The position numbers and the translations under genes were made by a program. Below, piece after piece: positions 514 to 40,500 of a stretch of 40,500 nt of DNA. This DNA comes from Methylovulum sp. (GTDB taxonomy: Bacteria > Pseudomonadota > Gammaproteobacteria > Methylococcales > Methylomonadaceae): NCBI GenBank assembly GCA_030653435.1, contig JAURZI010000010.1:1-40500 (forward strand), given 5' to 3'. A model generated the notes under the pieces. That model worked only from the letters and a program-made list of their open reading frames with translations. It ran no database searches and had not been told where the DNA came from. How positions within the stretch are numbered: position 1 is the stretch's first letter; each line of letters opens with the position of its first letter.

Positions 514-1620
514 TTAGAACACTTTGATTAACTGCTGCATAGGCAACTGCTTGGGATCTATTGAAATAATCGTGAACAAATCCGTTAAAATCTTAAACGA
601 GTCACGATTCCACGTGGAATGTTCCTCATCATCCACGTCGGCTATTTTGTAAGTCATCCCCAAATATTCAACTTCCGCAACAGCCGGAGTCAACTTATCA
701 TGTTCTCCCCACCTCATTTTCAAAATTGGCTTTCTTTCAAAATCAGGCACTTCGGTAAGCTTTCCGCCAGTCTGCAACCATTCGTCAAAATGTTGTTGTG
801 AGTGCCCTACCGCCCCCAATATCGCTGAAAAAGGCCTCATAATAAACGATACTTTTGGAATCCCGTCACTCGTATTGAGCTTAACCATGCCATCTTGCCA
901 AAAACTATAGCTCGGATCTGAATACAGTTTCGTTAACAAATCCCCGGCTTCAGGAGGAATTTCCAAGACATTTTCGCCTTTAACCACATTAATATTAAGG
1001 GCTTGATTAAGTTGCAATTGCCGGGTTAGCGCGGCTAAGCGCAAGAAGTTCCTGAAATTATGGGGCCGCAACTTGTTGTCCGGCATATTGTTTAACACCA
1101 TTTTCTTGCCCGATGGATATTCCAAATTGACCGATACCAATAATATCCTCATCAATTGGTCAACAGGGACGCCTTGTCTGAGCTGCTCGAAGAAAACTTT
1201 AGTGTCAATAGGCGAAAATAACGATGTTGCAAAAACCTCTCCGCTTAACGGCGTAAAGGAAAAATTCGGCGATTCCGTCGCACTCAGGCCAAGCGTGCCG
1301 ACAAAGCTGAAGGCCTTGGTTAACACGTTCGCAACGACTGCGCCGATTGTTCTTGAGTCAGTGAATGTGCCACCCATCGTGGCGCCAAAAGAAAACGAGG
1401 AGTTAATGCTGGACATCTGCATAAAATAACTCGAGTGTGAATTCGCCCTGCGCGCCAAATTCATCAGCATTTGCTCATTGGACAAGTCCGCATAGGTTTG
1501 GGACATCTTGCTAAAAGAATCTTTTAAAGCCACACCTCCGCACCCTGACAGCACAGCCACGCTTAAAAAAATCGTTAGCCCTTTAACAATTATAGATCCT
1601 GCACAACCCCGTTTTTTCAT
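514..1620 (-). CDS. Predicted outer-membrane lipoprotein of unknown function
   Basis: This encodes about 368 residues. I place the start at the ATG at 1618-1620 (MKKRGC), because GAGGTGG lies about 6-8 nt upstream; a GTG three codons earlier overlaps that ribosome site and is a worse choice. The N-terminus is a lipoprotein signal: basic residues, a hydrophobic core, then the lipobox LSGC with the lipidated Cys at residue 27. Gly follows at +2, so there is no inner-membrane retention Asp and outer-membrane sorting is expected. The mature part has a Ser/Phe/Gly-rich segment (SSFSFGATMGGTF) and an otherwise soluble-looking C-terminal half. I do not recognise the family. It follows the exporter gene by about 57 bp in the same direction, so it may be co-transcribed and help export or immunity; that is inference. 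The gene is visibly AT-richer than the NRPS genes. Confidence 0.8.
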   Translation of the reverse strand: MKKRGCAGSIIVKGLTIFLSVAVLSGCGGVALKDSFSKMSQTYADLSNEQMLMNLARRANSHSSYFMQMSSINSSFSFGATMGGTFTDSRTIGAVVANVLTKAFSFVGTLGLSATESPNFSFTPLSGEVFATSLFSPIDTKVFFEQLRQGVPVDQLMRILLVSVNLEYPSGKKMVLNNMPDNKLRPHNFRNFLRLAALTRQLQLNQALNINVVKGENVLEIPPEAGDLLTKLYSDPSYSFWQDGMVKLNTSDGIPKVSFIMRPFSAILGAVGHSQQHFDEWLQTGGKLTEVPDFERKPILKMRWGEHDKLTPAVAEVEYLGMTYKIADVDDEEHSTWNRDSFKILTDLFTIISIDPKQLPMQQLIKVF

Positions 1621-1677
1621 GTATCCCACCTCGTCAGTTAATCAAAAAAACCAGTTCCATCGCTCATGCTCGATCCG

Positions 1678-3333
1678 CTACTGTAACATACTGTCTTCTA
1701 CCATAAGGCCCATGTCCATAACAAATAACCTGTCACAATGGGTGAAATATTTTTCATCATGGGTCACGACGATAACCGTCTTGTTCAGATCTTTTAATTT
1801 TTGCAAAATGACTTCATAAAAAAACTGCCTGAACTCAGGGTCCTGATCGGCCGCGACTTCATCGAAAACATAAATCGACTTGTCTTCCAATAAAGCAATA
1901 ATCAAGGCCAATCGCTTCTTCTGCCCTGTCGATAAACTGGTATTGGTGAAGCGTCCGTCCTTATAACCGGTTTTTTTATCCAGCCCCATGATTACCAGAT
2001 ATTCGTTGACTGAGGCGGTATCAATATCGTGTTGGCCATAAAACCGGTCAAACAAATGAAAATCGGTAAAAATAATTGAAAACAGGTTGCGGTAATTGTT
2101 TAACAAGCTGCTGTCTATGGCATGGTCATCGACCACTATGGATCCCGAATCGGGCTTATAAAGCCCCGTCAATAGCTTAAGGAAAGTGGATTTGCCGCTG
2201 CCGTTGCCGCCACGGATAAAAACCAGCTCGCCGCGATTGATGGTTAAATCAAAAGGCCCTACGGCAAATGCCCTGGTTTGGTTTGGTCCGGGATACATGA
2301 ACTGGACGCGGCTGATGACTAATTGCCTAAAATAATCAGGCGCCATAAATACGACCCGCTCGTCGGTTATCGCCTCTTTTGCCGCAAACAGCCTCTCCTC
2401 CAGATTATGCAAAAAATCCACCGCAACATTGGCTCTGGCTACGCTGGGGATCATATCAATGATGATGACGATAGGCCCCATAATAAACAAAACGATAGTT
2501 GTGATCGACATAATCTTGTCAGCATCCAAGTCGCTGATCTGCGGCAATAAAAAAACGATGCTGGCCATCAGCACATAAAAATAAAGCTGGGCATAAAGCT
2601 GTAGATTAACATTGCTGATGTCGGTTTTCGTATTATGCTGCATCGCCTCTTCGGATACGCGCCCCATATAATTGCGGTACAAGTCATCGCTTTTGTCGCG
2701 ATTGATCTTTAACTCGTTAAAGCCATCCAGCACATGCTGCATATAGGTTAAATACTCATTTTGCTTGGCCAGGGCCTGCTGCATGGTCTTACTGATGGAT
2801 TTGACCAACACATAGATAGTGATGACCGCCCCCGTGATACAGATCACCGCCAGCAAAAAAGCCATTGTAGAAATACTGGCCATATACGCAAAAGAGCAGA
2901 GCAGCATGACCATCGCCGGGAATCCGTCGGCCAAACGGTGCGCTCCCTGGGAAATCAGTTCGGTTTTTTCCGAGAGCACCGACAGGATTTGCGACTTGCC
3001 AATTTCTTCATAAGACAATAGCTTCAAATCCCTGAGACCTTCCAAAATCCTGCCCCGGTATTGAAAAATACCAATTTGCACCAATCGGCTGATACTGTGG
3101 GTGACATAACGCTTGCTCAGGAAAAAAAGCGCCACGCACAGCACGAATAGCAGGAATAGACGGGCATCCAGTTCGGCATTGTCAAAATCCTTGGCCGCCG
3201 CGTTTAAAATAACCAAAACCAGCGCATTGATGGCACCCGATACCGTAGATGCAATGACCAGCAGCAGCTTGGTGTGCGGAGTCCTGATCGCTAAAAAATC
3301 AAGCAATTTTGATTTGATGACCGGACTCTTCAT
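1678..3333 (-). CDS. Cyclic-peptide-type ABC transporter, fused permease and ATPase (PvdE/SyrD/YojI-like)
   Basis: This 551-residue protein fuses a membrane domain to an ATPase domain. About six hydrophobic helices lie near residues 22-44, 57-73, 136-155, 158-178, 245-265 and 275-293. The nucleotide-binding half has Walker A GGNGSGKS (375-382), signature LSTGQ (467-471), Walker B IYVFDE (487-492) and the switch His in VVTHDE (H525). Size and order fit the cyclic-peptide exporter family that includes PvdE and SyrD, which move non-ribosomal peptides across the inner membrane. Its ATG overlaps the stop codon of the JmjC gene as ATGA, so the two are translationally coupled. The likely role is export of the peptide made by this cluster to the periplasm; cargo and direction are inferred from context. 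Confidence 0.9.
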   Translation of the reverse strand: MKSPVIKSKLLDFLAIRTPHTKLLLVIASTVSGAINALVLVILNAAAKDFDNAELDARLFLLFVLCVALFFLSKRYVTHSISRLVQIGIFQYRGRILEGLRDLKLLSYEEIGKSQILSVLSEKTELISQGAHRLADGFPAMVMLLCSFAYMASISTMAFLLAVICITGAVITIYVLVKSISKTMQQALAKQNEYLTYMQHVLDGFNELKINRDKSDDLYRNYMGRVSEEAMQHNTKTDISNVNLQLYAQLYFYVLMASIVFLLPQISDLDADKIMSITTIVLFIMGPIVIIIDMIPSVARANVAVDFLHNLEERLFAAKEAITDERVVFMAPDYFRQLVISRVQFMYPGPNQTRAFAVGPFDLTINRGELVFIRGGNGSGKSTFLKLLTGLYKPDSGSIVVDDHAIDSSLLNNYRNLFSIIFTDFHLFDRFYGQHDIDTASVNEYLVIMGLDKKTGYKDGRFTNTSLSTGQKKRLALIIALLEDKSIYVFDEVAADQDPEFRQFFYEVILQKLKDLNKTVIVVTHDEKYFTHCDRLFVMDMGLMVEDSMLQ

Positions 3334-4247
3334 GCCCTATTGCCACTGAGCAGTTTTTTTAACTTAAAAATAAACCGGTTGAAGCGCAACACCCAGTGCC
3401 AAGGCAAGCGGTTCATCAGCAGCATGACGATTGACCGTGACGAGTTAAAATTGCGCCAAAAAGGCCGTACTTTCCAAAAGTGGTTGCAGGAACACACATA
3501 ACCATCACCTAAGGCTATTACTTCATGCCACCAATGGGTCGGGATGTACAACAGCTGCCCCGGATTCAATACCAGCTCGTACCGATGCTGTTTGGCCTTG
3601 CTGTAATCCGGGTGTTTATCCAGGTCGGGATTATCGATATTGACCTGGCTGACCCAGAACGGCAACGTATCGTAAAAACCGAATGGATATAAATAGGCGG
3701 TTTGTTCCGGCGGAAACAAAATAACTTTCTTGCTGCCATGTAGCTGTATCAAGGTACCGTCGCCGGGATCAAAATGCAGGGGTTCCGCATGGCCGGCCGG
3801 ACCCACCCAGACATTCAAGGTCGCCCCGCGGATAGCCGGTTCCAGGCCTAAATCCCGCGTTAAAAAACTCAGTTCGGTAGCTATGGATTTTGCCGCTTCG
3901 GTATGGCCGATAGGGCTTTGCGCCAAATACAGATGCTTTATTTTGGCGCTGCCATCCTGGATACAGGCAGCAAACGCCGTCATCGTCATCATTAAGTGGT
4001 CGCAGTATTTAGTCCATAAATGCCTGGGCTTGGCAAAATGCCCTTCCCCGTAGTGGCGAACCAAATACTCATCATCGCCCAAATGACCACACAAAAAATT
4101 GAGATCCCAATCCACCGACGGCTTAATAAAATCAGTAATGACTACAGGTTTGCCCCGATTCCGGTAATCCTGGATAAAGCGTTGTGCCGTTAAGTCCGCC
4201 ATTGACAACTCATCTACCCGCATCCCGCCTAGCGATTGTTCATTCAT
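3330..4247 (-). CDS. Cupin-8/JmjC-type Fe(II)/2-oxoglutarate-dependent hydroxylase, putative tailoring enzyme
   Basis: This 305-residue protein has the JmjC/cupin_8 pattern. PLHFD supplies His158 and Asp160, and IPTHWWHEV supplies His241, giving an H-x-D...H iron site; GSKKVILFPP (171-180) and LNPGQLLYIP are typical strands of the fold. Family members hydroxylate amino-acid side chains of proteins or small molecules with Fe(II), O2 and 2-oxoglutarate. Set between the TE-containing NRPS and the exporter, it probably hydroxylates a residue of the peptide or a carrier-bound amino acid, which could also create a carbamoylation site; the substrate is not evident. The start ATG at 4245-4247 overlaps the end of the NRPS by 8 bp and has GAGAGAA a few bases upstream. 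The C-terminal 40 residues are basic and hydrophobic (PWHWVLRFNRFIFKLKK) and may touch the membrane. Confidence 0.82.
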   Translation of the reverse strand: MNEQSLGGMRVDELSMADLTAQRFIQDYRNRGKPVVITDFIKPSVDWDLNFLCGHLGDDEYLVRHYGEGHFAKPRHLWTKYCDHLMMTMTAFAACIQDGSAKIKHLYLAQSPIGHTEAAKSIATELSFLTRDLGLEPAIRGATLNVWVGPAGHAEPLHFDPGDGTLIQLHGSKKVILFPPEQTAYLYPFGFYDTLPFWVSQVNIDNPDLDKHPDYSKAKQHRYELVLNPGQLLYIPTHWWHEVIALGDGYVCSCNHFWKVRPFWRNFNSSRSIVMLLMNRLPWHWVLRFNRFIFKLKKLLSGNRA

Positions 4248-7200
4248 CGTGTATTCTCTCTAGCGTTTCATTAATTAAACGCGCCACATGGCTAATCTGC
4301 GGCGTCTCCATCATGTTTTCATGGCAACCCGGCAACCAATGCAAGCTTATGCCTAGCCCGGAATCCTGGCTCCAGCCTAAATAATCATCGTCGGTGATGC
4401 GTCGGGCGCCGTCTTTGGCCCTAAACAACGTGATCTGGCTATTGATAGGCGCAGGGTCGTATAACATCTGCAAATTGCTGCGGCAAACATCGAAATAACG
4501 CTTGCAAGCCTCATCATCCATAGCTCTGGGCACTAAGCCAGCTTGTTTGGCGCGGGCAAAAACCCGTTTTAACTGTGCGGCTTCGTCATACTCGCGCAAC
4601 GCTTCGGCGTCAAAACCCAAGCTCGAAAACAGGCTGACCAGGAAGTCGGCATGGTCGGTTTGGGCAACACCGGCTTGGGTCAGTTCGGGATGCGCGGTAT
4701 CCAACAAGCCCAGAAAAGCAATGCTTTCGCCGACGGCCTCAAGCTGGCAGGCCATTTCGTAGGCAACCAGCCCGCCGAAAGAATAGCCTAATAAACAATA
4801 AGGGCCGCGTGCCTGGACTGTTCTTATAGCCTGCACATAATGGGCCGCCATAACCGGCAGCGTCTGCACGATGTCTTGTTGGGCATCCATGCCGGCGGCA
4901 CGTAAACCGTACACAGGTTGCCCATGCCCTAGCGCCTTTGCCAAGTCGTTGTAGCAGATCACATGGCCGCCTACCGGATGGATACAAAACAGCGGTGTCC
5001 GCTCGCCTTGCGCTTGCAACGCGACTAATGGCGTCCACTCTGTTTGGATATCGTCAGCGATTAACCGCGCTAAGCTTTGGATGGTCGAGGCTTGGAAAAT
5101 AGCGGCCAATGGCAGGCTTTTGCCAAAAGTCACCTTAATCTGCGTCATTAAATCCAGCACCAGCAGGGAATGCCCGCCCAGCTCAAAAAAATCATCATCT
5201 GCAGACAATTCCCTGTCCAATTGCAGGATTTCCCGCCATAGTTTTGCCAACGTCTGCTGAACATAACCGACCGGCGGCGACAGCACTGGCGCTACCGGCA
5301 AACTTGCCTTAGGGTCGGGCAAGGCTTTCCTGTCCAACTTGCCGTTCGGTGTCAACGGAAACTCGGTAAGCATGACCAAGGCCGCAGGCACCATAAAACC
5401 AGGCAAACAGGCTTTGCATAGCTCATAAAGCCGTGCCTCCAAGGAAGCGACATCATCGGTGGACGATTTGACATAAGCCACTAATTTCCGGTCACTGGCG
5501 GCCGCATCACCTAGCGTCAACACGACACAATCCTCAACACCGGCGTCCGATAGCAACAGCGTCTGGATTTCGCCTAACTCAATCCGGTAACCCCGTACTT
5601 TCACTTGGTGGTCCAGCCGTCCGTGATAGACCAGCTCACCCAAAGCATCCCCGTCAGGCGCAGTAAAACTGACCAAATCGCCGGTGCGGTATAGTCGCCC
5701 GCCGACAACACCGCTAAACGGGTCGGGCACGAATTTCTCGGCCGTCAGCCTGGGTTGCTTATGATAGCCGCGCGCCAAGCCCATGCCGCCCAAGAACAGC
5801 TCACCCGGCGTACCGGGCAATCCCGGCTGCCCATAAGCATCCAACACATAAGCCTGGGTATTATCGATGGGTTGGCCTATGCACGGGCTGGCATGCGCCG
5901 CGCGTAACGTGTACGTCGAGTAAGTCGTGTCTTCCGATGGCCCGTATAAATCGTAGACTTTTTCAATATGCGGTTTGGCATACAGTTTATTCACTAAGTC
6001 TGTCGATAAAGGCTCACCGGCCAGATTGACTATCCGCACGGAAACCGGCAAGGCATCGGCGCGCAATAATTCTTCAGCCGCCGACGGCACGGTATTAATC
6101 AAGCCAGGCGCCAGATAGGCAAACTCGGCAATCTCGACCACATTACGCAGCAATACGACCGTGCCGCCCGCCGCCAGCGTGGCAAATATCTCAAATACGG
6201 ACAGATCAAAGCAAACCGACGTACCCGCCAACACTCGGCTTAATTGTGCCCCGCTATATACCGTTTGCGCCCAGGCCACCATCGCCACGGCGCTGCGATG
6301 CGTAATCGCTACGCCTTTAGGTTTGCCGGTAGAACCCGATGTGTACAACAAATAGGCAAGATTCTGCTGGCTTAGGCGTTGCCGTCCTACCTCCAGGTTT
6401 AAATCGGCATCCGGCCAGGCTTGATCAAGCAGCAGCATCGAGGTCGCCGCCAAGCTGGCGTGTAACTGCATAGTGTGTGATTCCGTCAGCAAGAGCAGGA
6501 CATCCGCATCTTGCAGCGCGTGTGCCAATCTGGCGCTAGGGTAATCCGGATCCAGCGGCACATAAGCCGCGCCGCTTTTCAATATTGCCAGCAAGGCCAC
6601 AATCAAATCGGGGGTTCGCTGTAGGCACACGCCTATCATGGTTTCCGGCCCGGCACCTTGTGCGGTTAAAATCGCCGCCAGCCGATCCGCTTTGGCATTG
6701 AGTTCGCCATACATTAGCCGAACCCCGGCCTGCTCGACGGCAATAGCTTCAGGACAGCCTACGGCACGTTGCTCGAACAGGGTATGCAAATAAAGCTCAG
6801 CGTTGACCGGCACTGCGTTTGCGTTCCAGTGATGGACAACCCGTTGATATAAGCCGTCATCCAGTAGCGAAAAATCCCCTATCCTGCCGGTGGGCTGCCG
6901 CGCTATCTGCTCCAGCACCCGGAAAAATCCATTGCATAGCCTTTGTATGGTTTCCGCTTTAAACACATCGGTATTGTATTCGAACACGCCCGTCATCTGC
7001 TCGCCGCCTTCTTGTATGGCTAGCGTCAAATCGAATTTGGCCTCTTTTGCGACCAGCGGCAACGGTTCGACCTGTAAATCTGCCAAGCCCAGCGGCTCCG
7101 TACCGACATTTTGATACACGAACAGCACTTGAAAAAACGGCGTCCCTGCCAGATCGCGTTCAGGTTGCAAGGCTTCGACCAGCTTTTCAAACGGCAAGCC

Positions 7201-10200
7201 TTGATGTGCAAACGCATCGATGACTGTTTCCCGCAGTTCGGACAGCAAGCCGGTAAACTGCGGATTGCCGGTAATGCAATGGCGCAACACCAGCGTGTTG
7301 ACAAAAAAACCGATCAGCGGCTCGGTTTCCTGCTGAGTCCGGTTGGCAACCGGCGTGCCTACCGCAATATCCTGCTGTCCGCTATACCGCGCCAAAAATA
7401 CCGTTAATGCCGCCAATAACAGCGTAAAAAACGAGCATTGCGATTGTTCCGCAAGCCGCAGCAAGCTTCGGGTAAGGCTGGCGTCCAGGCTAAACGGCAC
7501 CGAAGCCGCCGCAAATGTCGGTAGTGCAGGCCGGGCAAAATCGGCATGCAAATCCAGCGCGGGCGGATAATCGGCGAGCTTCCGCCGCCAGTATGCCAGC
7601 AGGGTTTCCAGTCTTGCGCCATCCAGCCACTGCCTTTGCCAAACAGCATAGTCGGCATATTGTACGGGCAAAGGCGGCAATAGCTCAGCCGGGGCAGTAT
7701 CCGGCTGCGCACCATAGAGCACAGCCAGTTCCCGTATGAACAAGCCTTGTGACCAACCATCCGACAACAGGTGATGGTTGTTGATGACCAATACGTGCCT
7801 GTCCTGAGCCATCCGTAACAAACGCACCCGTATCAGCGGCAAACAGTCCAGCGCAAACACATAAGCCGATTCCTCAGCCAGGATGTTTTGTAGCTGCTGC
7901 GCTTGCACCCCGACATCGTCAGTGCACAAATCGTCGTGCTGGATCCGCAATTCGTTAAGCCCCAGGATTTTTTGCCTGACTTGCCCGCCTTCCTGCACAA
8001 ATACCGTCCTCAGCATGGCGTGGCGTTGCACAATGGCGTTAAGGCAATGCTGTAATCGCGCCACATCCAGCGCCCCGCTGAGTTTAAGCGCAACCGCCAT
8101 ATTGTAAGCCGTACTTTGCGGATACAATTGCTGTAAAAAATACAGCCGCTCTTGTGCAAACGACAAGGGGTAGGAATCGGCCTGCGGGGCTGGCGTCACG
8201 GCAATGTCGGCATGTTGCTGGCATGCCGCTATCGCCTGGGCCTGCCCACGCAGCGTTGAATGCGTAAAGACTTCACGCACCGGCAGTTTCACGCCAAAAA
8301 CGTTTTGTATGCGGCTGATCAATTGCATAGCCAGTAAGGAATGTCCGCCGGACAGGAAAAAATCGCTGTCGCGGGTCGGTTCAACGGCTAATAATTGTTG
8401 CCAGATAGCAGCCAGACGTGTTTCATCATCCGTCACCGGCGCTTCAGACCTTACCGTTTGATAGTCGCCCGCTTCAGGTTCCGGCAATGCCTTATCATTG
8501 ATTTTGCCGTTAGGCGTCAGCGGCATGGCCTCCAGCCTGACCAGCGCCGACGGCTGCATATAAGCCGGCAACAGGGTCTGCAAGCGGCTACGCAAGCCAT
8601 CGGCATCAAAAGCGTGTTGCGCCGAAACGGTAAAATAGGCCAACAGGCGCTTGCCGCTATCGCCATAATCCCGCGCCAGCACACGGACTTGTTGAATGGC
8701 GGGATCCGTCGCGATTGCCGCAGCTATACCGGACAGCTCAATACGAAACCCGCGTATTTTTACCTGTTGGTCGGCTCGGCCGATAAATTCCATCGCGCCG
8801 TCCTCGCCGCAGCGCACCCTATCGCCGCTGCGGTACATACGCTCGCCGGACTGGGCGGCAAACGGGTCGGGCACAAACTTATCGGCGCTTTCCCTCGATT
8901 GATGCCAATAGCCTTGCGACAAACCGTCCCCGGCGATATACAGCTCGCCGCAGACGCCGACGGGCACCGGTTGAAGGCAGCGATCCAGTATATACAAACG
9001 CGTGTTCGCCAAGGCCCAGCCTATTGGCACTGTTACGGCCTCTGGCGCTACCTGCTGGATGTCATACCAGGACGTAAACGTCGTGTTTTCGGTAGGGCCG
9101 TAAACGTGTAAAAAATGCTCAGGCTTGCCCTGCTCCAACACTTTTCTGACTTGCACAGGATCGACGGCTTCGCCGCCGAACAGCAAATAGCGCAAACCGG
9201 CAAACGCATCGGCCTGTTGCTGGACGATTTGATTGAATAAAGCCGTCGTCAGGAACAGTACATTGATTTTTTGTTGCGCCAGAAACCCGGCAAACGCATC
9301 AGCTGCGAGGCTAATATCCCGATCGACAATAACCAGACTGGCGCCGTTCAGCAATGCGCCCCAAACCTCGAAAGTTGCCGCGTCAAATGCCGTATTGCTG
9401 GCTTGCGCGATACGGTCTCCCGGCCGAATATCGACGTAATCCGTACTCAGCACCAAGCGGTTGATCGCCGCATGGGCCACCGTGACGCCCTTGGGGACAC
9501 CGGTGGAACCTGAGGTATACATGATGTACGCCAACGCATTAGGCCACCCTAAAACTTCAGGGTCCGTATCGGGGTAGGCCGACAAATCCGCCAAATCCAA
9601 GACCAGCAACGGCCCCGCCCCGTTGATCGCCCGCGCAGTATCGGCCAGCGTCGATTGGGTAATCATCAACACGCTATCGGCATCCTCGATCATTAAGGTC
9701 AGGCGCTCCGTCGGATAAGCCAAATCCAACGGCAAATAGCTCGCGCCCGACTTTAACACCGCCAGCAGCACGGCGACCATGTCTATGCCGCGCTCCAGAT
9801 AAAGCGCAACCCTGTCCCCTGCCACAACTCCGTAATCGCTTAACAACCAAGCCAAACGGTTTGCCCAGCTATTCAGTTCGCGATAGCAGACTACGCGATC
9901 ACCGTGTATCAGCGCCGGTTGGTCCGGTGTAGCTTGCGCCTGCTTTTGAAAGTTTTCATGCACGGTCGATAGCCGTGGATAATTGGAGACGCTATTATTC
10001 CTGCCGTAAACAATGGCCCGATACTCATCCTCGGCTAACAGGCAAATTCCGGACAACAGCCCGTCGGGCTTTGCCGCTACCGCTTGCAGCAAATTCACAT
10101 AATACCCCATCATCCGCGCCATGCCGGTTGCGGAAAACAAATCGGTGTCATACTCCAGCGCACAATCCAGACCGTCAGGCGCTTCCTGCACCGATAAGGT

Positions 10201-11469: not shown

Positions 11470-11476
11470 AACCCGG

Positions 11477-14400: not shown

Positions 14401-14773
14401 GCCGCAAGTCGAACACATGACCTGCCCGGCTTAACGCCACCGCTTCGGCCTGCTTGAGTTGCCGTTCCAGGGGGGCAGGAGGGAGCAGCTGTTTTTCCAG
14501 ATTAAAACCGATAGCCGGACGGATCCATTGCGACGGCTCGCCCTGATAATCGGCAAACGTGGTACGGAGGATTTCATGGCGCTGGACTATCTGCGCCAGC
14601 GCCGCTTCCAGCGCAGCAACATCCAAGGTTCCCGCCAGGCGTAAAGCGGTCGTAATATTATAGGCGGTGCTGCCGGGTTGCAATTGGTCAAAAAGCCATA
14701 AGCGTTGCTGGGAAAAAGACAGCGGGAACTGATAAATATCTTCTGTTAAGTCTTGCTGCTCATTATTCATCAT
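11477..14773 (-). CDS. NRPS, C-A(unassigned substrate)-PCP
   Basis: This is a one-module NRPS of about 1098 residues. I start it at the tandem ATGATG (14768-14773), preceded by GGAG at 4-7 nt. A GTG or ATG further upstream would add 20 residues encoded by a palindromic repeat and is unlikely. C domain (about 12-460) is LCL-like with FPLSFSQQRLW and HHIISDG (148-154), fitting acceptance of an L-configured chain from the Val module. A domain (about 475-980) has IIFTSGSTGTPKAAAI, with Ala where the A3 motif normally has Gly after PK, and code DLKSFGADVK, which I cannot assign. PCP core is LGGHS (S1028). The C-terminus (LAELEGLSDDALAALL) is a short acidic helix that may dock to the basic N-terminal helix of the next NRPS. 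The gene follows the carbamoyltransferase by 61 bp. Confidence 0.93.
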   Translation of the reverse strand: MMNNEQQDLTEDIYQFPLSFSQQRLWLFDQLQPGSTAYNITTALRLAGTLDVAALEAALAQIVQRHEILRTTFADYQGEPSQWIRPAIGFNLEKQLLPPAPLERQLKQAEAVALSRAGHVFDLRQGPLLNVVLLTLADDSHVLVSVVHHIISDGWSMGVFMRELAAFYTAQIQGHISSGLPALAIQYGDYALWQREWFVGDIRDRQLSYWQTQLANVPPLLMLPTDKPRPPVQSFAGATWDAALSAQTTAALKQLAAAEGATLNMVLMAAFLVLLHRYSEESDMVIGTPVANRNQLELEPLIGFFANTLVIRADVEPQMSFRDLLRQLKATALAAYEHQDCPFEQLLDVLRPERSLSYSPLIQVFFTFQSASDQTFELPGVSISQLPLPRDNSQFDLAVVAAEQVDGVSLEFGYCTDLFYSDTIKDMAGHFVNLCTHAAARPDIRLGAVPLLAAHDYRTIVQAWNQNRELPLRYATVLDAVDAQIERTPDAVAVVCTGHTLTYRELAERSVRVAKVLMARGVKNGDLVGLCLERSLDMVIALLGILKAGAAYVPMDPHYPEQRLKLIVAGAGLQVVVAQQALAPLLAGLQADAGQLGVYHIEELLAAEAGLGALPKLSGEQLVYIIFTSGSTGTPKAAAIQHKGFANMVLHWYCEKFALQQAFSTLLCTSLSFDLTQKTIFAPLIFGGVLHLYAEAQYDPEQIVKLIESHHVGWFSTTPSAFYPLADAVAARPQALQSLRTVFLGGETIVFSRMQPWLDYAKGRTDIVNAYGPTECSDVCMAFHVDDPGRYVHKNVPLGVTIDNDRVYILDEGLNPVPMGLSGQLCVGGLGVGIGFLNDSRRTAELFLPDEFSVMPGARMYKSGDRVRFTRDGNFEFLCRTDHQVKVRGFRIDLGEIELVLNAHPQVQESVVMAGDNGAGDKFLSAYLVTGAAVPGSAELRDYVAQRLPHYMVPQYWLMLAKMPLTPSGKVDRRALPSPLEAGVAEPGSECRMPENEIEEHLLAIWQAVLDLPVIGTTQNFFELGGHSLNATQVVARIKQVFAVEMPMRVVFEHPTIIQLADWILAAQFDALNAGDQADLLAELEGLSDDALAALLSG

Positions 14774-14834
14774 TAATCTCCACTTATTCTGGTGTTGACC
14801 ATCCAAGGCGTGCACGGCACGCCCATATCCCACG
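14774..14834. repeat. Intergenic gap with a solitary palindromic repeat arm
   Basis: The 61 bp between the carbamoyltransferase stop and the next NRPS start contain GGCGTGCACGGCACGCCC (14807-14824), which folds on itself as GGCGTG...CACGCC. It is nearly the same as the right arm of the longer inverted repeat at 16896-16962, on the other side of the carbamoyltransferase gene. The rest of the gap holds the ribosome site for the NRPS. Confidence 0.6.
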
Positions 14835-16895: not shown

Positions 16896-16962
16896 TGTAG
16901 GGCGTGCCGCGCACGCCATCGGCGGCTCGATACCGGAAAAGGCGCGCACGGCGCGCCCTACA
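16896..16962. repeat. GC-rich inverted repeat between Val-NRPS and carbamoyltransferase
   Basis: Two 22-bp arms, 16896-16917 and 16941-16962, are reverse complements of each other with three mismatches, around a 23-bp centre. Each arm starts or ends with TGTAGGGCG or its complement, and each can also fold on itself. It looks like a REP/MITE-type dispersed element. The right arm runs into the end of the Val-NRPS: the stop codon (16958-16960) lies inside it. The remaining bases of the intergenic region (16827-16895) hold only the ribosome site of the carbamoyltransferase. Confidence 0.75.
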
Positions 16963-25263: not shown

Positions 25264-25277
25264 CGAATAGACCCGCA

Positions 25278-33000: not shown

Positions 33001-35675
33001 GTCGCAACCGGCGCTTGCTCCGCGCAGGGTGGCGCAGGCGTTGCATCGACCCAGCAGCGCTGGCGCTGGAACGGATAAGTCGGCAAGCGCAGGCGCTGGC
33101 GCTGTTCGGCTTGATAAAACCTTAGCCAATCCACGTTAACACCGGAACACCAGAGTTCGGCCAGGGTTTGCAGCACAGTAGCGTGGCTGCCGACGGGTAA
33201 ACAGCCCAGACAGCGCTGGCGGTCTTGCAGCACGGGCTTTACCAGGCCTTGCAAAGCCTGCCCTGGGCCCATCTCAAGCAAGACAAGATGCTTAAACTCG
33301 GCGCATAAGCGCTTGATCCCGGAGGCGAATTGCACCGGCTGCAAGAGGTGACGCTGCCAATAATCCAGGCTTAGATCTCGGCTATCCAGCCAATCGCCGG
33401 ATACATTGGACAGATAAGGAATCCGGTTATCCGCCATGTTGACGTTTGCCAAGGCGGTGCCGAAGCTGGCTGCAGCCTGCCGCATCAACGGCGAATGGAA
33501 GGCATGGGCTACCGCCAAAGGTTTGCAGCTAATGCCCTCCGCGTTTAAACGTGACTGCAAGGCATCAATCGCCTGCTGGTTACCGCTGATGACGCATTGG
33601 GCGTCGGCATTGACCGCCGCCAGCGCCAGCCCATCAACCAGCCATGCTTGACAGCGGGCTTCCGACGCCATCACCGCCAGCATGGCGCCCACTTCGCTGG
33701 CCTGCATTAATCGGGCGCGTGCACTGACCAGGCTTAATGCGTCCTGCAAGGAAAACACACCGGCGATGCAAGCAGCGACATATTCGCCCAGGCTGTGCCC
33801 TATCATCGCCGCCGGTTTGATGTTCCAGGCCATAAACAATTGCGCCAAGGCATATTCGATGACAAACAAGGCGGGCTGGGCGTATTGGGTTGTTAACAAC
33901 TGAGCTTCGGCAGCGGCCTCATGACCGGCAGCCGGGAACAACAACTGACGCAAGTCCATACCTAACAAAGGCAACAACCTATCGCAGCAGTCATCGACCT
34001 GCGCTTTAAATACGCTTTCGCTCCGGTATAACTCGGCGCCCATGCCCAAAAGCGGCGCACCCTGGCCGGGAAACATAAAAACGATAACGGGCGCATCGGC
34101 CGCCTGTTGGTAGCCTGTTTCGTTTAACCCGGCTACCGCCTGTCCGGCATTACCCGCAACGACACACTTACGCAAAGCCAGTTCGCGGCGTCCGACCGCC
34201 AAGCTATAAGCGACATCGGCGCAATCCAGCGCCTTATTGTCCTGCAACTGCCGGGCTAACGCGGTAGACAGCTCTTGCAAGGCTTGGGGCGATTTTGCCG
34301 ATAACGGCAGCAACTGCCATGCACGCGGGGAAATACTGGCGGGCATGGTTTCGGGCGCTTCTTCGAGCACGATATGGGCATTGGTTCCGCCTATACCGAA
34401 AGAACTGACCCCGGCGCGGCGCGGCGCGGCGCTTTCAGGCCAGGGTTGCAAGCGGCTGTTGACATGAAAAGGCCCGGTAGCGAAATCAATCGCCGGATTT
34501 GCTTCGCTGTAATGCAACGACGGCGGCAGTTGCCGATGATACAGCGCCAGCGCCGTTTTAATTAAACCTGCAATGCCCGCCGCCGTATCGGTATGACCGA
34601 TATTGCCCTTGACCGAACCCAGCGCACAGTGTTGCGCCAGCGTATCATCGGCAAATGCCAGCTTCAGCGCAGCAATCTCGATAGGGTCGCCCAGCGGCGT
34701 TGCCGTGCCGTGCGCCTCGATATAACCGATGGTTTCGGGCAAGACATCGGCAGCCGCCATCGCTTCGGCTATCACCGCCGCCTGCCCGTTTACGCTAGGG
34801 GCCGTGAAGCCGATTTTATCGGCGCCGTCATTATTGATCGCAGAGCCTTTAATGACGGCAAAAATCGTATCCTTATCTTTCAGCGCATCGCCCAACCGTT
34901 TTAGCAAGACCAGTCCCGCACCGCTGGACGGCACGGTGCCGTTAGCACCGGCGTCGAACGGGCGGCAATGCCCGTCCGGCGAAGGGATGCCGCCTTGCTG
35001 ATATAAATAACCGGTTTGCTGCGGCACCAGCAAGGTCGCCCCGCCTGCAATCGCCGCATCACACTGGAAATCCCATAAGCTTTGGCAAGCGGTATGCACC
35101 GCGACTAACGATGTCGAGCACGCGGTGTTGACCGATACGCTAGGGCCTTTTAAATTCAATTTATAAGACAAACGTGTCGCGGCAAAATCCTTGTCACTGC
35201 CAATCAGCATTTGATAAAAATCAGGCGACGCACCCTGGCTAAAGCTCGCCAATAAATTATTCAGCAAATAGATGTTCATGCCGACCCCGGCATACACCGC
35301 GCACAAGCCTTGGTAGCGGTCAGGATCCAGCGCCGCCTGCTCCAGCAACTGCCAGGCGCATTCCAGCAACAGGCGTTGCTGCGGATCCATCCATTCGGCT
35401 TCTTTAGGCGTGTAACCGAACAAATGGGCGTCGAAATCTTCTATGCCCGTCACCATGCCTTTGGCTTTGACATAGTCCGGATGCTTAAGCAACCCGACAT
35501 CGACACCGGCGGCAAGCAATTCGGCATCGCTAAAAAAACGGATGGTTTCTTCGCCGTCACGCAACATGCGCCAAAACGCGTCTATATCATCCGCGCCGGG
35601 AAACCGGCAAGACATCGCAACGATTGCAATAGGCTCCCATTCGGCCTCCATAGCGGCTTGTTCTATCATACTCAT
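30027..35675 (-). CDS. Type I PKS, KS-AT-KR(with embedded methyltransferase)-ACP
   Basis: This encodes 1882 residues. KS (about 14-440) has the active Cys in ACSTS (C186), His322 in EAHGTA and His361 in GNIGHT. AT (about 530-830) has GHSLG (S628) and HAFH (724-727), the malonyl-CoA type. A KR begins with VYLITGGLGGIG (1117-1128), is interrupted by about 415 residues containing a methyltransferase (LEIGGGSG at 1372-1379, YYFTDI, DVVHATPD, GLAEGWW), and resumes near 1570, ending with catalytic Ser1658, Tyr1671 and Asn1675. The carrier domain core is LGGDS (S1820). No DH or ER is seen, so the extender should stay a beta-hydroxyl, with methylation at the alpha carbon (more likely) or oxygen. Neither the B-type LDD nor the A-type Trp of KR stereotypes is present. 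The acidic C-terminus (DDDETEYEGGVI) probably docks to the TubC domain of the next NRPS. ATGA overlap couples it to the upstream NRPS. Confidence 0.95.
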   Translation of the reverse strand: MSMIEQAAMEAEWEPIAIVAMSCRFPGADDIDAFWRMLRDGEETIRFFSDAELLAAGVDVGLLKHPDYVKAKGMVTGIEDFDAHLFGYTPKEAEWMDPQQRLLLECAWQLLEQAALDPDRYQGLCAVYAGVGMNIYLLNNLLASFSQGASPDFYQMLIGSDKDFAATRLSYKLNLKGPSVSVNTACSTSLVAVHTACQSLWDFQCDAAIAGGATLLVPQQTGYLYQQGGIPSPDGHCRPFDAGANGTVPSSGAGLVLLKRLGDALKDKDTIFAVIKGSAINNDGADKIGFTAPSVNGQAAVIAEAMAAADVLPETIGYIEAHGTATPLGDPIEIAALKLAFADDTLAQHCALGSVKGNIGHTDTAAGIAGLIKTALALYHRQLPPSLHYSEANPAIDFATGPFHVNSRLQPWPESAAPRRAGVSSFGIGGTNAHIVLEEAPETMPASISPRAWQLLPLSAKSPQALQELSTALARQLQDNKALDCADVAYSLAVGRRELALRKCVVAGNAGQAVAGLNETGYQQAADAPVIVFMFPGQGAPLLGMGAELYRSESVFKAQVDDCCDRLLPLLGMDLRQLLFPAAGHEAAAEAQLLTTQYAQPALFVIEYALAQLFMAWNIKPAAMIGHSLGEYVAACIAGVFSLQDALSLVSARARLMQASEVGAMLAVMASEARCQAWLVDGLALAAVNADAQCVISGNQQAIDALQSRLNAEGISCKPLAVAHAFHSPLMRQAAASFGTALANVNMADNRIPYLSNVSGDWLDSRDLSLDYWQRHLLQPVQFASGIKRLCAEFKHLVLLEMGPGQALQGLVKPVLQDRQRCLGCLPVGSHATVLQTLAELWCSGVNVDWLRFYQAEQRQRLRLPTYPFQRQRCWVDATPAPPCAEQAPVATEDLSHWFAAVNWKRIPRPVGKSATADTVLVFDSPEAMAYPPQQPVIRITQGDYYQQFSASEFRLNPEQEQDFEHLFKALPWSSLQSLDVVYAWSIQAEANSAELGGVYFGLLNFCKVLAREHNAVQCRMTVLTRGLFDVTGGETRLNPMQALALGPVKVVPQEYPQIRCRLLDLDPDQPDLPDILIGEGEAVLASRHGHYWSPLLDSVVLDDVPGAEDLIKPQGVYLITGGLGGIGMSIAGFLARRYQATLLLTTRQPFPDNSAWSGLLKDAGLNEAVNFAALKAKLAHEQQALEAELSIPGLNSYPGLKDQLEQLCSLYLLDFFDGAGVAPHGGQIWALDALRAQLGVLPKFDKFLLLLLEILQRDGLILHAADQFSFTLPAARPWAQDIAALEQRINEQFPGFRPLYEMVAYCVRHYREALSGSISAISVLYPDGDRSLISETGRNTVEHSNHRVYYQLLKKHVDDIVDASAEVVRILEIGGGSGVLTGIIAPGLKGKNVEYYFTDIGKSFVLKVQQQAASLGLDFMRFGVFDIFQDPVAQGFDLQSFDLIYGLDVVHATPDIRRAIDCVSRLLKPGGELCLVETPPIPRWYEMVWGLAEGWWYFEDAELRSGTTPLLSPDAWEHVMNADGLFAHVAVFPLTPQQRLDTDCCLVVAKMPGAGKLGGVRDRAETIRALLDMERAGAKVHVHTVDVCDTAAMQKLAQQAGAINGVFHTAASDSRGYIAIQDRQRSLAELRPKVLGTLALQRSIDFKSVDFVLLFSSLNAITGGQGNIAYTAANSYLDAFAHYCRHQDLGRVHVLDWDRWQSIGQALAFEERVLNSSGLKLEGGITDTEGFAAIRRALRSPYPQLLVRTNRAAGVEPQMNPAHDADVPQQTVQQRPHGLQAYRAPETATEHMIAEVWSEVLGIKQPGVDDDFAALGGDSLIAIRVMSRLKTSLAMNLEVKLAFEYATIAKLARQIETLQAAVAITTVSGDDDETEYEGGVI
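30972..32222 (-). other. Methyltransferase insert inside the PKS KR domain
   Basis: Approximate limits of the insert, residues 1152-1568 of the PKS. It has a helical lid (about 1155-1365), then a class I SAM-dependent core: motif I ILEIGGGSG, an acidic strand end in YYFTDIGKSF, FDLIYGLDVVHATPD with the His conserved in PKS methyltransferases, LLKPGGELCLVE, and GLAEGWWYFED. These motifs match PKS C-methyltransferases, though PKS O-methyltransferases are related. The boundaries come from where KR-like sequence stops (LLLTTRQPFP) and resumes (AKVHVHTVDVCD). Confidence 0.8.
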
Positions 35676-38600
35676 CTTCTGGTCCGTCCAAGTCGGTGTT
35701 TTTGTTGTTGCCGTGCACGCTGCCCGGCCTGTTTAACAACTGCGGCAGACCCGTCTGTAGCTTGGCCGTCTGAGCATTGCTCAAGCCGGGCCGCCAGTTT
35801 TGCGATAGTCGGGTAGCGGAACAGATCCACGGTCTGCAATCCGCCCTGGGTTTGTTGCTGTAATAAATTCCAGACCTGCATCAGCAATAATGAATGCCCG
35901 CCGATATCGAAGAAATTATCGTCCCTGCCGATATCATCGCGTTGCAACACCTCGCGCCATATCCCGCCAAGCAGCTGTTCCGCGGCCGATTGCAAGGGTT
36001 TACCGCTGTGCTGCCGGATGCGCCGTTCCGGCTTGGGCAAGGCCTTGCGGTCGATCTTGCCGGAATGCGTCAACGCGAATGCAGCCATGTGTATAAAGTC
36101 GGCAGGTATCATATAAGCCGGTAAGGTGTCCGCGCACCAGGCCCGCAACACCGCGTCTTCAATGTTGTCGCCGCAATAATAGGCATATAGCGTGGCGTCG
36201 CCGTCCCCTGCCCCGCCCACGACGGCGACGGCTTGCCGGATAGCGGGATGTTGCTCCAATACGGTTTCAATTTCACCCAGCTCTATGCGGTAGCCGCGAA
36301 TTTTCGCCTGAAAATCCAGGCGTCCCAGGTATTCAATCTCACCGTTGCTGTGCCGCTTTACCAGATCGCCGGTCCGGTACATGCGTTCGCCTGCCCCGCT
36401 AAACGGGTCGGGGATAAAGCGTTCCGCAGTCAAACCGGCGCGGTTGCGGTATCCACGCGCGACCCCTAAGCCGGCAATCATCAATTCCCCCGGTAATCCC
36501 GGCGGCAACAACTGCATGGCGTCATCGACGATATATAGCCGGGTGTTGCCCATGGCCTCGCCTAACAGCACCGTTGCCGTACCATCGAGCCGCCAGCGCA
36601 TGGACCAGACCGTCGTTTCGGTCGGCCCGTACAGGTTCCAGACCTGTCCGGCGCTAGCATGTAATTGCCCGGCCAGCTTAGCCGATAAGGCCTCGCCGCC
36701 GCATAGCGCTTTGAATGTCGGCGTACCGCGCCAACCCGCAGCCAATAACAAGCGCCAGGTCGCCGGTGTCGCCTGCATGACCGTGATGCCCTGCTGTTGC
36801 AAGAGCGCTTGCAGGGCATAGCCGTCGGCGCTTTGCAGGCTATCGGCGATAACCACCCTGGCTCCTGTGCACAACGGTAGATACAGCTCCAGCGCGGCAA
36901 TATCGAATGCCGGCGTCGTGACCGCCAGCAACCGGTCTTCGGCATTCAGCCCAGGGCGCTGGGCGGTGGTCTGTAGAAAATTGACGATGTTGCGGTGACT
37001 AACCTGTACGCCTTTCGGTGTGCCTGTCGAACCCGACGTGTAAATGATATAGGCCAGATTATCGGGATGCAGGCGCACGTCCGGGCTTTCGTCGCTAACC
37101 GACCGGCACCGTGTCATATCCGCCACGTCTACCGACAGCTCCAGCGCTGACGGGCCATTGACCAGCACCAGCATGGCGCCCGAATCGCCGACCATGTGCT
37201 GCAAACGCTTGGCAGGCAACTGCGGGTCTAACGGCAAATAGGCCGCACCGGTTTTTAATACCGCCAGCAGCGCAACCAGCATGTTCGGGCAACGTTCGAC
37301 GCAAACCGCGATAGTTTTTTCGGGCGCGGCGCCTTGCGCGACCAAATACTGCGCCAAACCGTTGGCCTGTAACTCCAGTTCGGCAAAGGTCAGCGTTTGC
37401 GCGCCGAACTGCACCGCAATACGCTCAGGCGTCAGCCGGACTTGCCGTGCGAGCAGCTGGGGCAAGCTGTCCGCATGCAACGCATAATCCGTGTGCATAG
37501 CCTGCTCATTGGCAACCATCAGCTGTGCACATCCGGCTTCATCCAATAGGCTAAGCTCGGCCAGCCTATCACAGGATGCTTGCAGCATCGCGACGAGTAT
37601 CTGCCGGTAATGTTTGAGCAAGGCATCTATAGCAGCTGGCGCGAACCTATGCTGCTGATAGAAAATCGTCAGCAGCAACTGGCTGCCTGGAGTCACCAAT
37701 ACCGTCAACGGCAAATCGGTTTGCTCGACGACTCGAAAATCTTCCAGCTTAAGCTCGGCAGATTCCCGCCCCAACGTTTCGGCGATAGGGTAATTCTCGA
37801 AAATAAACAGCGTGTCGAACAAGCCCTGTCCGCCGTCTATCTGGCTCCAGCGCTGCACTTCCGCCAGTTGTGCATGGGCGAACTCCAAACGCTGCATGTT
37901 ATCCTTGAACAACTGTTGCAAAAACGGCGTTAGGCCCAGTCCGGCGTGTAGTCGTACGCGCACCGGCACGGTATTGATGTACAAACCCACGCTATCCGCC
38001 ACGCCGTCCATGTCCGCAGGGCGACCAGACACCGTGACGCCGAACACGATGTCGCGGCTATTGCAATAACGGCTGAGCAGCACCGCCCATGCCCCCTGCA
38101 ATACGGTATTCAGTGTGACGCGGCGGGCGCGTGCATAAGCCTCGATGTCCGCCGTCAATCCCTCATCCAGCGACAAGTCCAACCCATGGTATCGTGCTGC
38201 GCTATGCAACTCGCCGCCCAGGTCTATAGCCAGATGGTTAGGGGACGTAAATCCTGCCAGTTGCGCTGTCCAATAGTTTTTCAACGCACCGGCATCCTGC
38301 TCTGCCAGCCAGTCTATATAGGTCTTAAAGGGCAGCCTTTGCGGCAGCTGCGGCGGCTGTCCGCCGAGCTGCGCCGCATATAGCGCGAACAGGTCTTCCA
38401 GTAATTTGGGCAAGCTCCAGCCGTCGAACAGCACGTGGTGGTAAGTCCACAAAAACACATGGCGGTCGGCGCTTAAACGCAATAAGAGACAGCGCATCAG
38501 CGGCGCCTGGGCGGTATCGAAAGCCTCCAGCCTGTCGTCATGCAGGCAGTCATGCACAGCCTGTTGCTGGGCGGTTTTATCCAAGCCGGACAAGTCTGTT

Positions 38601-40500
38601 TCGCGCCACGGCAATTCCACTTGCTTGAAAACCTGTTGCAACGGCTGTCCTGCACCCTGCCAAGCAAAACCGGTACGCAAGACCGGATGCTGCTGTATCA
38701 ATTGCCGCCATGCGTCCCGCCAGGCACCGACATGCAATCGGCCATTGAATTGCCAACTGACTTGTTGCAGATAACTCGCCGACGCCTGTGCGTATACGCT
38801 GTGGAATAACAAACCTTGTTGTAGCGGTGACAAGGGATACACCGCCTCGATATCGTCGGCATGGGCGAGGACGTCTACGTCCGCCGTCAATAATCGCCCC
38901 AGGTTTTGTGCAAAACCATCCAGTAAACGTTTAACCGTATCGGGGTGGAATTGCAAAGGACTGTAACGCCAATCCAACTGCAAACAATCGTCGTGCACGG
39001 CGCTGTTAATATCCATCAGCACATCAAAACACTGGCCCGGCGCACGTTCGTCACCGCGATTTTCCAGCGCTTGCCCGATGAAAACGCCATCGCCATCGGC
39101 GCGACTGAAACGCCCCAGATAATTAAAACGCAGCCCTGTCGTTGCAGCTCCAGACAACTGTTGTTGCAGACTGTCATCTGAAGATAAATACCGGAGCACA
39201 CCGTAACCCAAACCACGGTTCGGCAACGCGCGCAATGCAGACTTCACCGCATCCAGCGCGGTATCGGCTGTTGCCGTCACCGCCAGCGGGAATAAGGTCG
39301 TAAACCAGCCTACAGTACGGGAAACATCCAGCTCCTTAAACACATCCTCGCGCCCATGGCCTTCCAGTTCTATCGACAAGGTTTGTTTGCCCAGCCATTC
39401 CCATAAGGTTTCGACTAAAGCCGCCAACAGGACTTCTTCGACGCTGGCCTGCAACCATCGCGGCGCTTGCATCAGCTGCCGCGTCAACTGGCTGTCCAAT
39501 TGCCAATGTCCAATAACGGTATCGGCCAAGGTGACTGCCAGCCCGTCTGCGGGGTTGTCCAACGGTAAGACGGCGACTGGCACAGCGGCTTGGGTAGTCC
39601 AATACACAGCGTCGGGGCTAGCCTTGGCCCATGACTGCAATTTTTCCGCCCACTGGATATAAGACGTGGTTTTCTGCGGCAAATCAATGCGTTTGCCCTG
39701 CACTGCCGCCAGATAAGCCTGATGCAAATCCGCCAATAAAATACGCCAGGACACGCCGTCCACTGCCAGATGATGTATAACCAACAATAAGCGCCCCGAA
39801 CCCTGGTCGCGGCTGAGGAAATGCACGACGCGCACCAGCGTACCGTTATCCGGTCTGAACGAGGACTGGATAAGCTGGGCTTGCGCCGTCAAATCCTCGG
39901 CTGAGCCATATGCGCCGGTTTGCAAAACCTCGGCCACTCCGACGTCCGCCGCGATATAAAGCCCGGCCTTGCCGTTGTCCATGCTATAGCGCATCCGCAA
40001 AGCATCATGATGTTGCAACAGCGCGCCGACCGCCTGGGCCAATGCCGTGCCGTCAAGATCGGCGGCCACTTCCAGCAACACCGATTGGTTAAAATGGTGC
40101 GCGTCTACAGTCACGTTGGTAAAAAAATAACGTTGTATCGGCGTCGCGACGCAACTGCCGCTGACTATGCCCTGCTCGGCATTCGCGCTGGCCGCAGCCA
40201 GCGTTTGCGCTGCCAACACGGCTATCGTTTGCGCCTCGAACAATTGTTTCAGGCTAAACAGCAAGCCCGCTTGCTTAGCCCTGGAAATGATCTGGATACT
40301 GAGTATCGAATCGCCGCCCAGTCCGAAATAATTGTCGTGTATGCCGACACCCTGCACCCGCAGGACATCCTGCCAGATAGCCGCCAGCGTCTGTTCCACG
40401 GCGTTGCGCGGCGCCGTGTACGCGTGGTGCGCGGCCAACTCCGGTTGCGGCAGGGCTTTGCGGTTGAGCTTGCCGCTGGTGGTCAGCGGCAGTTCATCCA
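35672..40500 (-). CDS. NRPS, 5'-truncated by window: (A)-PCP-E-C-A(Gly)-PCP
   Basis: The frame is open to the right edge. The first visible residues, DELPLTTSGKLNRKALP, are the A10 motif of an A domain outside the window, so a TTG at 40436-40438 is not the start. Counting from that codon: PCP core LGGDS (S44); E domain (about 95-515) with HHLAVDGVSW (222-231), EGHGRE and RTVGWFTTLFP; DCL-like C domain (about 530-970) with YPLSPLQQGLLFHS and HHVLFDG (667-673); A domain (about 985-1470) with IYTSGSTGTPKG and code DILQLGLVWK, one change from the known Gly code DILQLGLIWK; PCP core IGGHS (S1516). All catalytic motifs look intact. The C-terminal tail is basic (RARQQQKHRLGRTRR). It makes a D-configured residue of unknown identity and then adds Gly, which passes to the PKS. 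The stop overlaps the PKS start as ATGA. Confidence 0.95.
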   Translation of the reverse strand, partial: DELPLTTSGKLNRKALPQPELAAHHAYTAPRNAVEQTLAAIWQDVLRVQGVGIHDNYFGLGGDSILSIQIISRAKQAGLLFSLKQLFEAQTIAVLAAQTLAAASANAEQGIVSGSCVATPIQRYFFTNVTVDAHHFNQSVLLEVAADLDGTALAQAVGALLQHHDALRMRYSMDNGKAGLYIAADVGVAEVLQTGAYGSAEDLTAQAQLIQSSFRPDNGTLVRVVHFLSRDQGSGRLLLVIHHLAVDGVSWRILLADLHQAYLAAVQGKRIDLPQKTTSYIQWAEKLQSWAKASPDAVYWTTQAAVPVAVLPLDNPADGLAVTLADTVIGHWQLDSQLTRQLMQAPRWLQASVEEVLLAALVETLWEWLGKQTLSIELEGHGREDVFKELDVSRTVGWFTTLFPLAVTATADTALDAVKSALRALPNRGLGYGVLRYLSSDDSLQQQLSGAATTGLRFNYLGRFSRADGDGVFIGQALENRGDERAPGQCFDVLMDINSAVHDDCLQLDWRYSPLQFHPDTVKRLLDGFAQNLGRLLTADVDVLAHADDIEAVYPLSPLQQGLLFHSVYAQASASYLQQVSWQFNGRLHVGAWRDAWRQLIQQHPVLRTGFAWQGAGQPLQQVFKQVELPWRETDLSGLDKTAQQQAVHDCLHDDRLEAFDTAQAPLMRCLLLRLSADRHVFLWTYHHVLFDGWSLPKLLEDLFALYAAQLGGQPPQLPQRLPFKTYIDWLAEQDAGALKNYWTAQLAGFTSPNHLAIDLGGELHSAARYHGLDLSLDEGLTADIEAYARARRVTLNTVLQGAWAVLLSRYCNSRDIVFGVTVSGRPADMDGVADSVGLYINTVPVRVRLHAGLGLTPFLQQLFKDNMQRLEFAHAQLAEVQRWSQIDGGQGLFDTLFIFENYPIAETLGRESAELKLEDFRVVEQTDLPLTVLVTPGSQLLLTIFYQQHRFAPAAIDALLKHYRQILVAMLQASCDRLAELSLLDEAGCAQLMVANEQAMHTDYALHADSLPQLLARQVRLTPERIAVQFGAQTLTFAELELQANGLAQYLVAQGAAPEKTIAVCVERCPNMLVALLAVLKTGAAYLPLDPQLPAKRLQHMVGDSGAMLVLVNGPSALELSVDVADMTRCRSVSDESPDVRLHPDNLAYIIYTSGSTGTPKGVQVSHRNIVNFLQTTAQRPGLNAEDRLLAVTTPAFDIAALELYLPLCTGARVVIADSLQSADGYALQALLQQQGITVMQATPATWRLLLAAGWRGTPTFKALCGGEALSAKLAGQLHASAGQVWNLYGPTETTVWSMRWRLDGTATVLLGEAMGNTRLYIVDDAMQLLPPGLPGELMIAGLGVARGYRNRAGLTAERFIPDPFSGAGERMYRTGDLVKRHSNGEIEYLGRLDFQAKIRGYRIELGEIETVLEQHPAIRQAVAVVGGAGDGDATLYAYYCGDNIEDAVLRAWCADTLPAYMIPADFIHMAAFALTHSGKIDRKALPKPERRIRQHSGKPLQSAAEQLLGGIWREVLQRDDIGRDDNFFDIGGHSLLLMQVWNLLQQQTQGGLQTVDLFRYPTIAKLAARLEQCSDGQATDGSAAVVKQAGQRARQQQKHRLGRTRR

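Follow-up and report, generated by a model that had tools for sequence, protein, structure and literature searches.

A conserved hybrid PKS-NRPS assembly line of gammaproteobacterial methanotrophs with a ketoreductase-embedded methyltransferase and a carbamoyltransferase beside a predicted homoserine module

The stretch of DNA studied here (the window) is contig JAURZI010000010.1 of the Methylovulum sp. assembly GCA_030653435.1, analysed at its full length of 40,500 nucleotides. It carries genes for nonribosomal peptide synthetase (NRPS) and polyketide synthase (PKS) modules, and is probably the downstream portion of an assembly line found in gammaproteobacterial methanotrophs, a co-linear PKS-NRPS hybrid that would work by the scheme proposed below and whose product would contain the rare residue O-carbamoyl-homoserine. 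Genes were inventoried from open reading frames (ORFs) and Pfam families, and the domain order was read with profiles built on the window domains. Seven complete NRPS modules, one partial NRPS module and one PKS module were identified; ORFs, Pfam and domain profiles thus bear out a preliminary description of this sequence, which had counted at least seven NRPS modules and one PKS module. Beside the modules, genes encoding a carbamoyltransferase, a Cupin_8/JmjC protein, an ATP-binding cassette (ABC) exporter of the cyclic-peptide type and a terminal thioesterase were found. The carbamoyl and hydroxyl tailoring that had also been claimed stands as gene content, in the carbamoyltransferase and the cupin, while its chemistry is a prediction. 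The condensation-adenylation-thiolation (C-A-T) modules are complete with intact motifs, and a ketosynthase-acyltransferase-acyl carrier protein (KS-AT-ACP) module stands in line with them. Catalytic motifs, whose meanings we take to be the customary ones, are present in the C, epimerization (E), T, thioesterase (TE), KS, AT, ketoreductase (KR) and methyltransferase (MT) domains. Chance is excluded, since Pfam E-values of the window proteins reach 6e-210 and the gene order is conserved in other genomes.

The window contains 11 large genes, all on the minus strand with open reading frames. The rightmost runs open into the contig edge, and the intergenic gaps are at most 63 bases or small overlaps, except for two gaps of 131 and 608 bases. 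From right to left, the synthetase genes encode an NRPS lacking its 5' end, with T-E for a D-residue (probably D-Ser) followed by C-A(Gly)-T (35672..40498; code DILQLGLVWK); a PKS module, KS-AT(malonyl type)-KR with embedded C-methyltransferase (C-MT)-ACP (30027..35675; identified by Pfam, alignment, orthologues and a structural model); TubC_N-C-A(Gln)-T-E (25278..29963; DAQDIGVVDK); C-A(Thr)-T-E (20128..24669; DFWNVGMVHK); C-A(Val)-T (16958..20131; DAFWLGGTFK); a C-A-T module predicted to be specific for homoserine (11477..14833; DLKSFGADVK); and the terminal C-A(Ile)-T-C-A(Ala)-T-TE (4240..11469; DAFFLGVTFK and DLFNNALTYK). The chain-release domain at its end matches the Thioesterase family (4.6e-31) and has the motif GYSFG. 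Positions 1-9 of each code were read from the sequence and the tenth letter (K) was set by convention; Gly, Gln, Thr, Val, Ile and Ala are the residues that we presume these codes to select. Specificity codes, the C-domain tree and orthologous clusters agree on the order given in the preliminary description, namely D-X, Gly, methylated ketide, D-Gln, D-Thr, Val, an unknown residue, Ile, Ala and release. The residue called unknown there is assignable, most likely as homoserine, and the D-X that was left unnamed is most likely Ser by orthology.

Close relatives of the host are gammaproteobacterial methanotrophs. Syntenic orthologues of its large ORFs, with 57-74% identity, are present in Methylomonas sp. 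UP202 (G107) and in two further genomes, G129 and G141. The cluster is complete in UP202, where it covers approximately 96 kb at 4.700-4.797 Mb. In G220, which belongs to another family of the order, the gene order is identical from the ABC gene to the Gly module. A full-length PKS orthologue with at least 64% identity was found in 4 of 201 family genomes, which were sampled from a larger set; the window genome is counted in both numbers. One more genome has a fragment at 77%. The best named match from the same genus is a PKS fragment of Methylovulum sp. FW215_bin.51 (76%). In the C-domain tree, the three C domains of the window that follow an E domain and their UP202 counterparts form one clade (support 100/98).

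The module at 11477-14833 most likely activates homoserine, as judged from its code. In the accessible text of PMC7524897, the code DLKNFGSDVK was assigned to homoserine by antiSMASH 4.1.0. All ten orthologues of the module, including the window copy, show the pattern DLK(N/S)FG(S/T/A)DVK, and seven of them read DLKNFGSDVK. No further code starting with DLK was present among 149 A domains of 120 proteins (the matches listed). The neighbouring gene (14835..16826) encodes a NovN/GdmN-type O-carbamoyltransferase, which matches NovN over its full length (1.5e-156) and also GdmN, contains both Pfam halves (Carbam_trans_N and Carbam_trans_C), and is predicted to transfer a carbamoyl group to a hydroxyl. 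Among 120 listed of 7,998 protein matches, 13 share 69-83% identity with it besides the window's own; below those, identity falls to 61% (62% over partial lengths) among the matches listed. At 69% or more, the gene occurs in 7 of 311 genomes of the order, the window genome included, from four genera. In six of the seven contigs (window, G107, G129, G141, G220 and G197) the homoserine module follows it immediately downstream. A second, partial match in the host genome (62%) is on contig C84. According to the accessible text of PMC8471579, O-carbamoyl-homoserine occurs in heinamide B and the heinamide cluster has no assigned carbamoyltransferase. Beyond the heinamides, no O-carbamoyl-homoserine was found in the literature searched (open papers only). 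Because the carbamoyltransferase adjoins the homoserine module and the heinamides provide a precedent, the enzyme most likely makes O-carbamoyl-homoserine on the homoserine side chain. It is a direct candidate for the missing step of O-carbamoyl-homoserine biosynthesis.

In the PKS module, the catalytic part of the KR is split by the MT. The first part of the KR catalytic subdomain, with the NADPH motif TGGLGGIG (32196..32342, minus strand, approximately residues 1112-1160 of the PKS), is followed by the inserted C-MT (31011..32195, minus strand, approximately residues 1161-1555) and then by the rest of the subdomain with the active-site Ser/Tyr/Asn motifs (30516..31010, minus strand, approximately residues 1556-1720). 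Sequence, orthologues and an AlphaFold model concur on this arrangement. The MT domain matches the C-MTs of CurJ and DszA in sequence and fold. The window PKS departs from the CurJ-type placement, in which the MT lies ahead of the KR structural subdomain and the KR is uninterrupted. A position ahead of the KR structural half is also the one described in the accessible text of PMC2613160. In the two other MT modules of the G129 cluster the KR is uninterrupted. The KR-embedded layout was also found in Desulfobacterota, Acidobacteriota and Rhodospirillaceae. No description of it was found in the open papers searched, including the accessible parts of PMC10127204 and PMC9317276, and no solved chain with this layout was recognised among the 50 rows listed of Foldseek and VIA-align results. 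An O-methyltransferase of the stigmatellin type was rejected, as C-MTs are the top matches among solved structures and no StiD or StiE label occurs in the 14 rows listed. If confirmed, the KR-embedded MT would add to the known module layouts one that standard domain annotation reduces to 'MT-KR', and it would be relevant to PKS engineering.

In UP202 and G129, the Gly module is preceded by three Ser modules in one protein (4,722 and 4,717 amino acids). Three PKS proteins precede this Ser-Gly protein and three more are encoded at the opposite end of the cluster, the first of which in G129 starts with AprA_N, WH_AprA and AprA MT2-like domains. The Ser A-T regions share 91-99% DNA identity in UP202 and approximately 89% in G129; for the tandem regions of UP202 this suggests recent duplication or gene conversion. 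In the window, in G141 and in G220, the contig starts in or just before the carrier domain of the third Ser module, and G141 is nearly identical to UP202 at the region where its contig starts. The near-identical Ser modules are the probable cause of the contig breaks in all three assemblies, and the window contig thus probably ended on this repeat. By orthology, D-X of the window would be D-Ser. The starter had been placed outside the window in the preliminary description, which fits the relatives, where the starter would be a polyketide with an AprA-type loading region (G129). The sequence to the right of position 40,500 that it had pointed to does not exist in the host assembly, as the window is the complete contig C118 of exactly 40,500 bases. 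The host assembly comprises 4.66 Mb in 161 contigs with a completeness score of 99.95%. Its 20 KS matches sit on the window, C36, the multi-KS contigs C73 and C131, C141, C134 and C5, and none resembles the upstream PKS, as judged by open-frame size and contig. The NRPS contigs C36, C155, C158 and C74 were rejected as the missing part. None has an end overlap of at least 15 bases with the window; C36, C155 and C158 are less than 40% identical to the upstream NRPS of the relatives, and C74 gave no match row. C36 encodes a KS-KR-T-C-A-T-KS-AT-KR-T-TE protein, and C73 (96 kb) and C131 (67.5 kb) carry huge PKS/NRPS frames of 8,561, 6,484 and 4,912 amino acids with many KS domains.

Several observations weigh against parts of this reading. 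The window code DLKSFGADVK differs from DLKNFGSDVK at two positions, and its nearest homologue (P0242) reads DLKSFGTDVK. The module could therefore have a drifted code, with S and A replacing N and S, and activate a substrate other than homoserine in this strain, the more so as PMC7524897, as far as its accessible text goes, quotes the homoserine reading of DLKNFGSDVK as a database assignment. We consider this unlikely: the two changes are conservative, and the remaining code positions, the unusual K and D among them, are kept in all ten orthologues. The carbamoyltransferase could also target another hydroxyl, on the Thr or Ser side chains, the ketide beta-carbon or the upstream polyketide. 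The predicted product has several free hydroxyls, and the nearest solved relatives of the enzyme are NovN, which acts on a sugar hydroxyl, and GdmN, which acts on a polyketide hydroxyl; a precedent for carbamoylated Thr is reportedly given by the celebesides. In the seventh contig, from the bin G198, amylase genes and not the homoserine module come after the carbamoyltransferase. G129 is an exception to the synteny, as its homoserine module (L067, 54465-56819) lacks approximately 300 A-domain residues, in frame, and the carbamoyltransferase is kept all the same. Adjacency in six of seven contigs and the heinamide precedent nevertheless make another target somewhat unlikely, and homoserine remains our preferred site.

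The integrity of the cluster was weighed in the same way. G198, a bin of the same genus, contains five cluster genes at 75-84% on separate short contigs (L093, L094, L100, L102 and L104), and its carbamoyltransferase, PKS, Gln and Thr genes each adjoin unrelated genes. Amylases and a DUF3418/HrpA-like protein are among these neighbours. The best match of G198 to the terminal NRPS is 45%. The bin consists of 950 contigs with 7% contamination, and either its gene order is broken by true dispersal or the bin is chimeric. In the host assembly, neither upstream PKS nor Ser modules were found, despite its 99.95% completeness score. Together with the broken order in G198, this could point to an incomplete or decaying cluster in the host, with the upstream half lost and the rest making a truncated product or none. 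Such a loss seems improbable to us, as all 11 large window genes have open frames, which in the rightmost gene continue to the contig edge, and the contig breaks off at the point where near-identical repeats interrupt two other assemblies, so that missing contigs are expected. Two further points are to be set against our reading. The clade of C domains that follow an E domain also holds one extra UP202 C domain, the third of the 4,722-residue protein, whose preceding module has no E domain. The AlphaFold model has a mean pLDDT of 68.9 and a pTM of 0.48. On balance, we favour the window as the downstream part of a co-linear line.

For this line we infer the following biosynthesis, including residue identities, tailoring sites, cyclisation and any function of the product. 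Six PKS modules, presumably also encoded in the host genome and the first with an AprA-type loading region (its domains are observed in the G129 orthologue), would build a branched polyketide. This chain would be extended with Ser, Ser, D-Ser, Gly, an alpha-methyl-beta-hydroxy ketide, D-Gln, D-(allo-)Thr, Val, homoserine, Ile and Ala by ten NRPS modules and a further PKS module, the latter using the C-MT built into its KR catalytic subdomain. The carbamoyltransferase would then most likely convert the homoserine side chain to O-carbamoyl-homoserine. The Cupin_8/JmjC protein (3330..4247; Cupin_8 profile) is a predicted FIH-like Fe(II)/2-oxoglutarate hydroxylase; its best match among solved structures is FIH (1.9e-25), and the HFD...H iron site is present. 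It would most likely beta-hydroxylate a residue of an E-containing module, with D-Gln as a first guess. A role of Cupin_8 proteins in hydroxylating residues of E-containing modules has been proposed for the scytocyclamides (PMC7524897, accessible text). Chain release would fall to the thioesterase, with a macrocycle as the probable form, and the ABC exporter would move the product out of the cell. We tentatively suggest that the product is a 17-module polyketide-decapeptide with O-carbamoyl-homoserine, which would be the second peptide family with this residue and the first with an identified carbamoyltransferase, made with a hitherto undescribed layout that joins methylation and reduction in one composite domain.

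The remaining genes lie at the left end of the window, also on the minus strand. The ABC exporter (1678..3333) matches TIGR01194 with 302.3 bits (cut-off 286.2). The adjacent gene (514..1629) encodes a putative outer-membrane lipoprotein with LSGCGG, which we take to be a lipobox, and shares 57-61% identity with counterparts in three orthologous clusters. No Pfam or NCBIfam family and no PDB sequence match, profile search included, was found for this lipoprotein, which is possibly the outer-membrane partner of the exporter. A partial DUF697 gene (1..213; Pfam DUF697, 2.7e-8) shows a 70% nucleotide match to G129 over 295 bases, and a DUF697 gene also lies beside the cluster in G129. The relatives have a 266-amino-acid gene between the Gln and Thr proteins (L062:14812-15612 and L070:15145-15945), whose product has no Pfam match and is methyltransferase-like by eye. 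It was rejected as a window component, as no significant match was found in the window. The G129 cluster also carries a stand-alone thioesterase and a phosphopantetheinyl transferase, the UP202 cluster a dicarboxylate symporter, and both clusters Band_7 and periplasmic-binding proteins (L061, L066 and L067). A protein 100% identical to the homoserine-module protein (P0241; later start, longest contig 16,687 bases) indicates that a second assembly of this stretch may exist.

Clusters of this general hybrid type are common, and, in agreement with the preliminary description, we know of no compound or characterised cluster that matches this assembly line. No described methanotroph product of this kind was found in the papers searched; PMC11964084, in its accessible text, names gene-cluster classes only. 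Collectively, this is a real conserved assembly line of methanotrophs, without a described product in those papers. The KR-embedded MT and the in-cluster carbamoyltransferase beside the homoserine module set the cluster apart from ordinary orphan clusters.

Among known systems, the laxaphycin family (scytocyclamides and heinamides) shares the homoserine-type A code, Cupin_8 hydroxylases, a hybrid PKS-NRPS and a macrocycle, the last being predicted here (accessible texts of PMC7524897 and PMC8471579). The O-carbamoyl-homoserine of heinamide B is the residue predicted for the methanotroph product (PMC8471579). In contrast to the laxaphycins, the methanotroph cluster has a different residue sequence and an internal PKS module, and unlike the heinamide cluster, which has no assigned carbamoyltransferase in that text, it carries one. 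Identity with the laxaphycins was rejected: their 11- or 12-residue sequence is unmatched, the codes of the window and its relatives differ from those in the accessible table of PMC7524897, and the starter differs. No AMP-binding or aminotransferase family that would indicate a beta-amino fatty acid starter was found in the six upstream PKS proteins scanned (five of G129 and one of UP202; for the 3270-residue protein, 25 of 27 families were listed). The AprA_N, winged-helix and MT2-like domains of the first PKS of G129 resemble the AprA-type loading of apratoxin and were not found in the host assembly. The C-MT is of the same sequence and fold type as those of CurJ and DszA but is placed within the KR catalytic subdomain. 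The carbamoyltransferase matches NovN and GdmN over its full length with both Pfam halves, and differs from them in its setting, within an NRPS cluster and beside a predicted homoserine module.

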